Origin: Halothiobacillus sp.
Lineage (GTDB): Bacteria > Pseudomonadota > Gammaproteobacteria > Halothiobacillales > Halothiobacillaceae
Length of the DNA stretch: 64,000 nt
Assembly: GCA_023255735.1 (NCBI GenBank)
Contig: JAGDVP010000007.1
Location: forward strand, 74,531-138,530
Reading direction: 5' to 3'
The notes under the pieces were generated by a model. That model was not told the DNA's origin. It did no database searches and was given only the letters and a program-made list of their open reading frames with translations. Made by a program: the position numbers and the translations under genes. Positions 27,888 to 31,339 of the stretch are shown here, piece by piece (the stretch's first letter is position 1; the number at the start of each line of letters is the position of its first letter).

Positions 27888-28748
27888 ATGGCAGAAAATG
27901 CGTTAACCGAGCATAAGTTTATGCCCGGCAATCAGTGTGTTGTGTTGGCTTTTTCGGGGCTGCGCAGCACGCATTTAGAGCTGCAGCCTTTGCTCAAGCG
28001 GCTGAATTTAGAAGGGTTTTCAGTGTTTGCGCCGCATCTGGCAGGCTATGGTTTTGCACAAAATCCGGCCGTGGGCACTTGGCGGCAATGGGTAGATGAG
28101 GCGGTAGCGCATTTTGATGCGTTGGCCCGCCAGTATGCGCAGGTAGTGGTGTGTGGCCTCAGTATGGGCGCGACGCTGGCGCTGGCAGTGGCGGCCGAGC
28201 GGGGCGATCAAGTGACTGCTGTGGTGCCCCTGTCGACAACGCTGCATTACGATGGTTGGAATACCCCGTGGTATCGCTTTTTAAGCCCGCTGGGTTACTT
28301 TACGCCGTTGCGTCACCGTATGCTGATTCGAGAGTCGGCGCCTTTTGGTTTGAAGGATGAACGGTTGCGCGCGTGGATTGAGCGCCAAGTTGCGGCCGCA
28401 CCCATCACGGCGGTAGGCGCTTCGGCCTTATCTCTACCGGCTTTACATGAGGCCGCCCGCTTGATGCGCCACACCCGTCGTGCTTTGCCTCGGGTGACTG
28501 CGCCGGTGCAATTGGTGCACGCAACGCAGGATGATATTGCCCATATCCGCAGTGCGCACACGGTTCAGATTAAAGTTAGCAGCCGAGATGTGCGTTTACT
28601 TAAACTTTATAATAGTTACCACATGGTAACATTGGATCTAGAAAAGATTGCTGTTGCTAATATGGTGGTTGAGTTCTTACGTTTTTATTGTTTAACCCAA
28701 GATTCTGTGTGTTCTGAATCGAATACTGATGGTGTATTTCATGAGTGA
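27888..28748 (+). CDS. Alpha/beta hydrolase (Est30/carboxylesterase-like)
   Basis: LAFSGLRSTHLELQPLLKRLNLEGFSVFAPHLAGYG, nucleophile elbow GLSMGATLAL, C-terminal HATQDDIAHIRSAH and YNSYHMVTLD. Start set at ATG 27888. Confidence 0.85.
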   Translation: MAENALTEHKFMPGNQCVVLAFSGLRSTHLELQPLLKRLNLEGFSVFAPHLAGYGFAQNPAVGTWRQWVDEAVAHFDALARQYAQVVVCGLSMGATLALAVAAERGDQVTAVVPLSTTLHYDGWNTPWYRFLSPLGYFTPLRHRMLIRESAPFGLKDERLRAWIERQVAAAPITAVGASALSLPALHEAARLMRHTRRALPRVTAPVQLVHATQDDIAHIRSAHTVQIKVSSRDVRLLKLYNSYHMVTLDLEKIAVANMVVEFLRFYCLTQDSVCSESNTDGVFHE

Positions 28749-28977
28749 TATCGAAGCGCAACTCTACCAGTTGTTAATCAAGGAACTACCCACCGCGCCC
28801 GAAGGGTTGACCCGTGAAAGCACACTGGAATCCATTGGCATGGATTCACTATCCACCATCGAGTTTATGTTCCAGATTGAAGATCATTTTGGTATACGGT
28901 TCGATCAAACCGGCACGCCGCCTAAAACCTTGGGCGATGTTTTTGATGAGGTTCACGCGAAGCTTGAACATGCCTGA
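28741..28977 (+). CDS. Acyl carrier protein
   Basis: MSDIEAQLYQLLIKEL...ESIGMDSLSTIEFMFQIEDHFGIRF: DSL phosphopantetheine site. Overlaps the hydrolase stop. Confidence 0.92.
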   Translation: MSDIEAQLYQLLIKELPTAPEGLTRESTLESIGMDSLSTIEFMFQIEDHFGIRFDQTGTPPKTLGDVFDEVHAKLEHA

Positions 28978-30199
28978 AATGCATCGGGTTGTTGTCACTG
29001 GTTTTGGCGCGATTACGGCGGTGGGTACTTGGCCTGGCACGTTGTTTGAGCAGGTATGCGCGGGACATTCTGGGATTCGTCCGCTTGAACATCAATGCCC
29101 GATGCCACCGATTACGATGGCAGCGGTGATTGAATCGGGCATTGATAATGACCCCAAAACGGCAGCCCATGATCGCGCTACGCAGCTGGCGCTTACGGCG
29201 GCGCGTTTGGCGTTGGCCGAGGCGGGGCTGCTGGATGATGCGGCCTTGCGCACAGAGATTGGCGTTTATGTGGGCACCGGTGCGGGGCCTTCGAACACGA
29301 TGGATCAAAGTTATCGAAGGTTATATGCCGAGCAGCGCGATCGCGTCGCGCCGATGACCTTACCACGCAGCATTCATAATGCGCCGGCTTCTGAGGTGGC
29401 GATTCGTTTTGGTTTGCATGGCACAAACAACACCTATTCGATTGCTTGCGCCTCATCTGCCGCGGCGATTGGCGAAGCGATGCGGGCGATTCGTCATGGC
29501 TATAGCCGCCGGATTTTAGCCGGTGGCACCGAATCTTTGCTCACGTTTGGCGTGTTGCATGCGTGGCATGCTTTGCGTGCTCATGCGGCACCCGCTGAGC
29601 CTATTTCTGCCTCCTGCCGTCCTTTTTCAGCCGATCGGGATGGTTTGGTGATGGGCGAGGGCAGCGGTTTTTTGATACTTGAGAGTTTGGAATCTGCAAA
29701 AGCGCGCGGCGCGCCAATCTGGGCTGAGTTGGTGGGTTATGGTGCCAGTTGCGATGCCACGCATATCACTCATCCTGATGCGGCTGGCCAAATAGTGGCC
29801 ATCAAGATGGCGCTGAGTGAGGCGGGGCTAAATCCTTTCGATATTGATTATGTGAATGCCCATGGCACCGGGACGCCGGCGGGCGATGCGGTTGAGGCGG
29901 CGAGTTTATCGGCCGTATTTGGATCGCATCTGGCCAAGCTGCCGGTCAGCTCAACCAAGGCAGTGCATGGCCATTTGATGGGAGCCGGCGGCGCGGTTGA
30001 GCTTATTTTAAGCTTGGCTGCACTCAACCAAGGTGTCATTCCGCCCACGGCCAATTGCCGCGTGCCTGATCTCGCTTTGGGTCTTGATATGGTGCCCGAA
30101 GGTGCCCGATCGGCGCACTTAAACACCGTCATGTCGAGCTCTTTTGCTTTTGGTGGAAGCAATGCCGTGTTGATTGCCCAACGGTTGAAGGTTAATTAA
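28970..30199 (+). CDS. Beta-ketoacyl-ACP synthase (KAS II-like)
   Basis: MHRVVVTGFGAITAVGTWPGTLFEQVCAG; Cys in SIACASSAAAIGEA; His in VNAHGTGTPAGDAVE and KAVHGHLMGAGGAVE. ORF track start 28814 is too early. Confidence 0.92.
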   Translation: MPEMHRVVVTGFGAITAVGTWPGTLFEQVCAGHSGIRPLEHQCPMPPITMAAVIESGIDNDPKTAAHDRATQLALTAARLALAEAGLLDDAALRTEIGVYVGTGAGPSNTMDQSYRRLYAEQRDRVAPMTLPRSIHNAPASEVAIRFGLHGTNNTYSIACASSAAAIGEAMRAIRHGYSRRILAGGTESLLTFGVLHAWHALRAHAAPAEPISASCRPFSADRDGLVMGEGSGFLILESLESAKARGAPIWAELVGYGASCDATHITHPDAAGQIVAIKMALSEAGLNPFDIDYVNAHGTGTPAGDAVEAASLSAVFGSHLAKLPVSSTKAVHGHLMGAGGAVELILSLAALNQGVIPPTANCRVPDLALGLDMVPEGARSAHLNTVMSSSFAFGGSNAVLIAQRLKVN

Positions 30200-30202
30200 T
30201 TG

Positions 30203-31339
30203 ATGCGCATGGATGATCAATCTCCTTTATTGGATGTGCCCGTGCCGCTGGATCAAATGGCGGTGCTTTCTATCGATTGGTATTTTGACCCGGAAATTTA
30301 CGAGCAAGAATTAAGCAAGCTGTTTGGTCGTGGCTTGCAGTATGTCGGCCACGAGCTCATGGTGCCTTTGGTGGGCGATTTTAAAACCTTGGAGCGGTTT
30401 AATCACGCGCAGATGCTGGTCAGGCAGGCGGATGGGCGCATTAATTTGGTGAGCAATATTTGCCGGCACAGGCAAGCTCTGATGTTGGAGGGGGCGGGCG
30501 CGCTGCCAAATCAGCGCATTTCTTGCCCGCTGCACCGCTGGGCTTATGATACCGACGGCCGCTTGCTGATTGCACCGCAATTCCCTCAAAACCCGTGTTT
30601 ACACCTAGCTTCAACGCCGTTATTTAATTGGCGCGGATTGCTGTTTTCCGGTGATGCCACGGATGCAGCGCTCAATGATGATATTCCCTTGGCGCATTAT
30701 TTCGATTTTAGCGACTACGCGCTTGATCGAGTAGAGTCTGTCGATTATTCCTTTAATTGGAAAACGTTTATTGAGGTGTATTTAGAGGATTACCATGTGG
30801 GTGTGATTCACCCAGGGTTAAAAAAATTTGTTTCGTGTCAAAATTTGGAATGGACTTATGGCGCGCGCTGGTCCATGCAAACGGTGGGTTTAAATCCGCA
30901 GTGGGGTAATTCGCGCTCAGAGGCTTATCAATTATGGCAGGCAGAACTTAACAACAGACATGGCAGAACCTCGGATGCTTATCCATTCGGCGCTATTTGG
31001 TTTACCTATTACCCAGGCTTGATGATTGAGTGGTATCCCGATGTTTTGGTGATTTCAACCATTCAGCCCACGGGTATTGAGCAGTGTCGTAACATCGTTG
31101 AGTATTATTATCCGGCAGATATCGTAGCGCACCAGCGCGGCTTAATCGCCGCGCAACAAAATGCGTACCGAGAAACTGCGGTTGAAGATGAAGTGATTTG
31201 TATCAAAATGCAGCATGGTCGCCGCGCGCTTTATCAGTCGGGTCAAAATCAAGTTGGCCCCTATCAAATCCCCCTTGAAGAGGGCATGCAGCATTTTCAT
31301 CAATTCTTGCGTCAATATATCAAAGCAAGTGGCGATTAA
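30203..31339 (+). CDS. Rieske [2Fe-2S] non-heme iron oxygenase, alpha-subunit type
   Basis: Rieske ligands CRHRQALMLEGAGALPNQRISCPLHRW; mononuclear Fe motif FIEVYLEDYHVGVIHPGLKKF. Confidence 0.9.
   Translation: MRMDDQSPLLDVPVPLDQMAVLSIDWYFDPEIYEQELSKLFGRGLQYVGHELMVPLVGDFKTLERFNHAQMLVRQADGRINLVSNICRHRQALMLEGAGALPNQRISCPLHRWAYDTDGRLLIAPQFPQNPCLHLASTPLFNWRGLLFSGDATDAALNDDIPLAHYFDFSDYALDRVESVDYSFNWKTFIEVYLEDYHVGVIHPGLKKFVSCQNLEWTYGARWSMQTVGLNPQWGNSRSEAYQLWQAELNNRHGRTSDAYPFGAIWFTYYPGLMIEWYPDVLVISTIQPTGIEQCRNIVEYYYPADIVAHQRGLIAAQQNAYRETAVEDEVICIKMQHGRRALYQSGQNQVGPYQIPLEEGMQHFHQFLRQYIKASGD

Follow-up and report, generated by a model that had tools for sequence, protein, structure and literature searches.

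Two described systems offer precedents for the genes that we discuss here. In the first, NodF-NodE, an acyl carrier protein and a ketosynthase alone dictate an unusual acyl chain (PMC5080398, PMC9048898), and when the pair is lost, acyl groups that are polyunsaturated or longer than C18 are no longer made (PMC5080398, which interchanges the names of the NodF and NodE proteins). To make these chains, the pair presumably needs help from other fatty-acid enzymes of the host. The second is MupW of mupirocin synthesis, which sets a precedent for a Rieske oxygenase in a polyketide or fatty-acyl pathway (PMC10098928). We studied a 64,000-nucleotide stretch of Halothiobacillus sp. (the window; contig JAGDVP010000007.1), in which positions 27888-31339 hold four packed, co-directional genes for an alpha/beta-hydrolase (HYD), an acyl carrier protein (ACP), a ketosynthase (KAS), and a Rieske oxygenase (ROX). 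An initial annotation had described these genes as lying together with intact catalytic motifs; Pfam and a motif check confirmed this, and the Pfam matches of all four proteins exceed curated cut-offs. Judging from the sequences, we find it evenly balanced whether the cassette is a specialized, genus-restricted acyl-chain pathway that consists of a HYD-ACP-KAS core plus ROX. We found no description of the four-gene combination in the open-licence literature that we searched, where it is apparently new as a set, and each of its parts is of a known kind.

The evidence that the four genes belong together comes from the genus. The order HYD-ACP-KAS-ROX recurs at 6 loci in 5 of the 10 genomes of Halothiobacillus, and these loci represent three kinds of genomic site. 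At the first kind, a RIO kinase and a dsbD-like gene adjoin the cassette (in the window and at one of two copies in G016); at the second, cyanophycin-synthetase-like genes do (G012 and G019); and at the third, the cassette lies within a large cluster (G018 and the other copy in G016). Every strong match to ROX in the genus belongs to such a cassette, and in a sixth genome the sole match is weak and falls on a short Rieske-type protein. Within the cassette, the tree of KAS agrees with that of ROX, with the window and G018 on one side and G012 and G019 on the other. Furthermore, the ratio of nonsynonymous to synonymous substitution rates (dN/dS) is about 0.06-0.10 for each of the four genes where dS was computable, with dS near saturation. 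Because the order is the same at three kinds of site, the branching of KAS and ROX is concordant, and dN/dS is low, there is good comparative evidence that the four genes are retained as a unit within the genus, under purifying selection.

One of the six loci looks damaged. The copy in G016 at the first kind of site is spread over two contigs, its KAS frame is disrupted, and it has an extra Leu between the His ligands of ROX (L084:1-1300, L002). This could be decay or an assembly error; the second copy in G016 is intact. In the window, the RIO-type kinase is the gene after the cassette and is on the opposite strand. It is kept in four other genomes of the genus, but G018 and G019 have different genes around it and in G014 a contig end cuts the region, so we obtained no clean empty site to compare with the window locus.

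The conserved synteny of all four genes that the initial annotation had looked to is real in half of the genomes of the genus but is confined to it. ROX was found in none of 17 genomes from the family's three remaining genera, and neither a class-wide search for ROX (369 genomes) nor searches for HYD (369 and 399 genomes) found the four-gene cassette outside the genus. An indexed scan of 85,000 genomes used exact peptide patterns and would have missed distant cassettes.

It is the parts that recur elsewhere. HYD homologues (30-45%) are present in many genomes, and HYD, ACP, and KAS occur together, with no ROX, in G687 (40/57/45%), G755 (36/29/46%), and G393. In all three the genes are adjacent and homologous to those of the cassette. 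The trios of G687 and G755 stand alone among apparently unrelated genes, while in G393 and on a plasmid of Xanthomonas sacchari the three genes form part of a larger cluster that also encodes aminotransferases and transporters (on the plasmid, HYD lies about 4 kb away from ACP-KAS). Unlike the cassette, neither the trios nor the Xanthomonas-type clusters include a Rieske oxygenase, and those of Xanthomonas and G393 carry EamA and ABC/HlyD genes in addition to their aminotransferases. We know of no characterized product of either type. More widely, the HYD family recurs with a class III aminotransferase, an MtnX-like HAD phosphatase, a DegT aminotransferase, GNAT, paired EamA, and HlyD/ABC genes (L094, L080, L081, L147-L171), and these clusters, from gammaproteobacteria and other Pseudomonadota, sometimes include ACP-KAS.

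ROX homologues (41-53%) are found in Neisseriales, Burkholderiales, Pseudomonas/Stutzerimonas, and Alteromonas, with no KAS or HYD adjoining, and outside the genus the relatives of ROX often stand alone. Some adjoin dxs and ispA (L006 and L098, the latter also with xseB), which is a repeated linkage to isoprenoid genes. Others lie within operons for siderophores of the type made independently of nonribosomal peptide synthetases (NIS), alongside a SidA-like monooxygenase, an MFS transporter, and IucA/IucC, in Pseudomonas/Stutzerimonas and Caballeronia (L024, L025, L099). The homologue in G375 carries one in-frame TAG stop (L145). Because the trio occurs without ROX and ROX recurs without KAS elsewhere, we infer that HYD-ACP-KAS is an older core to which ROX was later added in Halothiobacillus.

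The same distribution would fit two neighboring units, in which HYD-ACP-KAS makes a specialized acyl chain, whereas ROX works independently on a small molecule, for instance as a demethylase or a hydroxylase, and was transferred alongside and is only co-transcribed. The trio exists without ROX and ROX exists without the trio in many genera, and the folds nearest to ROX (see below) are those of enzymes that act on small molecules. However, a passenger would be expected to be lost or to move alone, and instead the four genes are adjacent at three kinds of site with concordant branching of KAS and ROX. We consider two separate units somewhat unlikely.

ROX (30203..31339 on the forward strand, or from an alternative TTG start at 30200) is predicted to be the alpha subunit of a Rieske non-heme iron oxygenase (PF00848, Ring_hydroxyl_A, E = 2.2e-37; PF00355, Rieske, E = 1.2e-14). 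It contains CRH...CPLH and YHVGVIH and, late in the protein, an invariant E-D pair (E328, D329), and across 18 homologues C87, H89, C108, H111, H198, H203, and D329 are invariant. So ROX has both the CxH/CxxH pattern of a Rieske center and the 2-His-1-carboxylate ligands of a mononuclear iron. Its AlphaFold model has a mean pLDDT (predicted local distance difference test) of 77, with the Rieske region low. MupW offers a parallel to ROX in its role, and it acts in a trans-acyltransferase polyketide synthase (PKS) pathway.

Several observations weigh against a dedicated acyl-chain pathway. The fold of ROX is nearest to stachydrine demethylase and CntA, which are oxygenases of small quaternary ammonium compounds and not of acyl chains (E about 1e-15, 18-20% identity). 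ROX shares its complete ligand set with these enzymes, but at about 20% identity, and it differs from them in being linked to ACP and KAS and in having no linked reductase. The modeled fold thus indicates an oxygenase of the quaternary-ammonium type and says little about the substrate. As the initial annotation had noticed, there is no reductase partner beside the cassette; in the 93.5%-complete genome, no reductase of the PF00970 type, the type searched for, was found. No KAS was seen beside ROX homologues outside the genus. The structure model of HYD is poor (mean pLDDT 51), too low for a structural search. Finally, the pathway is dispensable, as the cassette is missing from half of the genomes of the genus.

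KAS is a beta-ketoacyl-ACP synthase (28970..30199, forward strand, with an alternative start at 28979; ketoacyl-synt, E = 2.4e-37, and its C-terminal domain, E = 2.2e-34) with an intact active site (Cys163/His303/Lys335/His340 in E. coli FabF numbering). It is 41% identical to the FabF of its own genome and scores 400 bits against the NCBIfam fabF equivalog, below the cut-off of 493.75. The phylogeny of KAS against FabF that the initial annotation had proposed went against a housekeeping role: a tree constrained to place KAS with FabF (KAS II) loses 70.9 units of log-likelihood and is rejected by the approximately unbiased (AU) test (p-AU 0.00058). A clade with NodE and the KAS of the Xanthomonas trio is also rejected (p-AU 0.0046). 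Instead, a 99/99 clade unites the cassette KAS, the ketosynthases (KSs) of the relatives' aryl-polyene-type clusters, and the KASs of the stand-alone trios. Within that clade the cassette KAS is a separate branch that is not nested among the aryl-polyene KSs, and the inner forks have no firm order; a joint clade of cassette KAS and stand-alone-trio KASs is not rejected (p = 0.31). Long branches were left out of the KAS tree. By its placement in the tree, then, KAS is distinct from FabF, FabB, and NodE. All four of the cassette KASs that we checked have changes in the pocket relative to FabF (Ile108 to Ala, Leu111 to Ser, and Phe133 to Thr), and since these positions differ, the substitutions suggest an acyl preference unlike that of FabF.

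The cassette shares features with two described kinds of system. As in NodF-NodE, a dedicated ACP gene immediately precedes a FabF-like KAS (about 40-44% identical to NodE), and there are no reductases in the pair; unlike NodF-NodE, the KAS falls outside the NodE clade, there are no nod genes, and a hydrolase and a Rieske oxygenase are present. Aryl-polyene clusters have the nearest KS clade and, in the Halothiobacillus relative G018, the same order of ACP then KS, but no KS-CLF (chain length factor) pair, ketoreductase (KR), dehydratase (DH), AMP ligase, or exporter lies beside the window cassette. The window genome (2.06 Mb) has three KS genes, which are FabF, FabB, and the cassette KAS. We also considered a type II PKS (KS-CLF-ACP) and rejected it: the cassette has a single KS, and the others in the genome are just FabF and FabB. 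No aryl-polyene-type KS was found in the window genome, whereas G012, G013, and G018 have them, which may reflect loss or the incomplete assembly.

ACP is a dedicated acyl carrier protein of 78 amino acids (28741..28977, forward strand; PF00550, PP-binding, E = 1.5e-8) with the phosphopantetheine site GMDSL. It is 22% identical to the AcpP of its own genome and 77-96% identical to the cassette ACPs of relatives. HYD (27888..28748, forward strand; Hydrolase_4, E = 2.6e-22) has the nucleophile-elbow motif GLSMG, which is kept within the genus, and candidates for the acid and the His in HATQDDIAH and NSYHM. The nearest sequences in the PDB are a thermostable monoacylglycerol lipase and Est30, so HYD looks like a serine hydrolase of this kind, with a putative role as a thioesterase of acyl-ACP or as an editing enzyme. 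The HYD and ACP genes share 8 bp, as do ACP and KAS if KAS starts at 28970 (with the start at 28979 they abut), and ROX starts no more than 4 bp from the KAS stop. A scan for promoters and terminators gave no excess over shuffled sequence.

Our best guess about the chemistry is as follows. Host enzymes would convert ACP to its holo form and load malonyl or acyl groups onto it, and KAS would then extend a host-derived acyl chain on ACP for one or more rounds. The FabG, FabZ, and FabI of the host could reduce the beta-keto group, as is presumed for NodF-NodE. ROX, drawing its electrons from a reductase whose gene lies elsewhere, might hydroxylate, desaturate, or otherwise oxidize the chain, either while it is bound to ACP or after its release. 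HYD would cleave the thioester to release an oxidized fatty acid, or it might edit misloaded ACP. The most far-reaching version of this idea is that ROX oxidizes an ACP-tethered chain that was built by a dedicated KAS, which would yield a new class of oxidized lipid or signal in Halothiobacillus; we think that this version is unlikely.

The initial annotation was right that the cassette is not a second fatty-acid operon, as no other enzyme of the fatty-acid cycle was found beside it in the window. From the missing KR, DH, enoyl reductase, and acyltransferase, it went on to propose a single condensation, and this does not follow, because NodF-NodE is a counter-example: it also lacks local reductases, yet it gives polyunsaturated chains (PMC5080398). 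In the fullest form of that proposal, KAS would make a beta-ketoacyl-ACP without reduction and HYD would release a beta-keto acid, which would lose CO2 to give a methyl ketone or be oxidized by ROX. The adjacent hydrolase and the lack of a reductase or dehydratase alongside would suit such a route, but the closest KS relatives sit in aryl-polyene-type clusters that reduce and dehydrate. By analogy to NodF-NodE, repeated elongation with reduction is equally possible as a mode of condensation, and we consider the route through an unreduced beta-keto acid very improbable.

The large cluster in G018 and G016 raises the possibility that the product is passed on to another pathway. There, the cassette is flanked on one side by a block that encodes T_hemolysin, an AMP ligase, a haem-oxygenase-like iron enzyme, and TPR and SDR proteins, and on the other by a reducing type I PKS with a pyridoxal phosphate (PLP) enzyme (L059, L063-L064), and capsule-type export and sugar genes adjoin the cluster. 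Within the genus, T_hemolysin is found only in these two genomes. We read the PLP enzyme as similar to alpha-oxoamine synthase (AOS); the cluster is possibly a sphingoid-like lipid pathway. The cassette might supply an oxidized acyl starter or side chain to the PKS and AOS, and stand-alone copies might feed other acceptors or be remnants. In favor of this, both G018 and G016 have a copy of the cassette beside the PKS and the AOS-like enzyme, and it is the other copy in G016 that has the disrupted KAS frame and the extra residue in ROX. On the other hand, 4 of the 6 loci have no cluster of this kind around them, the large PKS of G012 is far from its cassette, and no type I PKS was found in the window genome, at 93.5% completeness. 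Because the window genome lacks such a PKS, supplying one is not the general function of the cassette, and we consider supply as its overall role quite unlikely, even though the cassette may feed the PKS pathway in G016 and G018. (The window also encodes soxA/soxC-like genes, which we read as compatible with a sulfur oxidizer.)

Returning to the reading of the cassette as a specialized acyl-chain pathway, if it does make a defined oxidized acyl product, it would be among the smallest dedicated acyl-chain pathways that we know of. It would also, if true, be a rare coupling of a Rieske oxygenase with carrier-protein chemistry. More broadly, HYD-ACP-KAS appears to be a recurring and uncharacterized core module in the Pseudomonadota, to which different lineages attach different tailoring genes, and the four small genes of Halothiobacillus could offer a direct experimental handle on this wider family.
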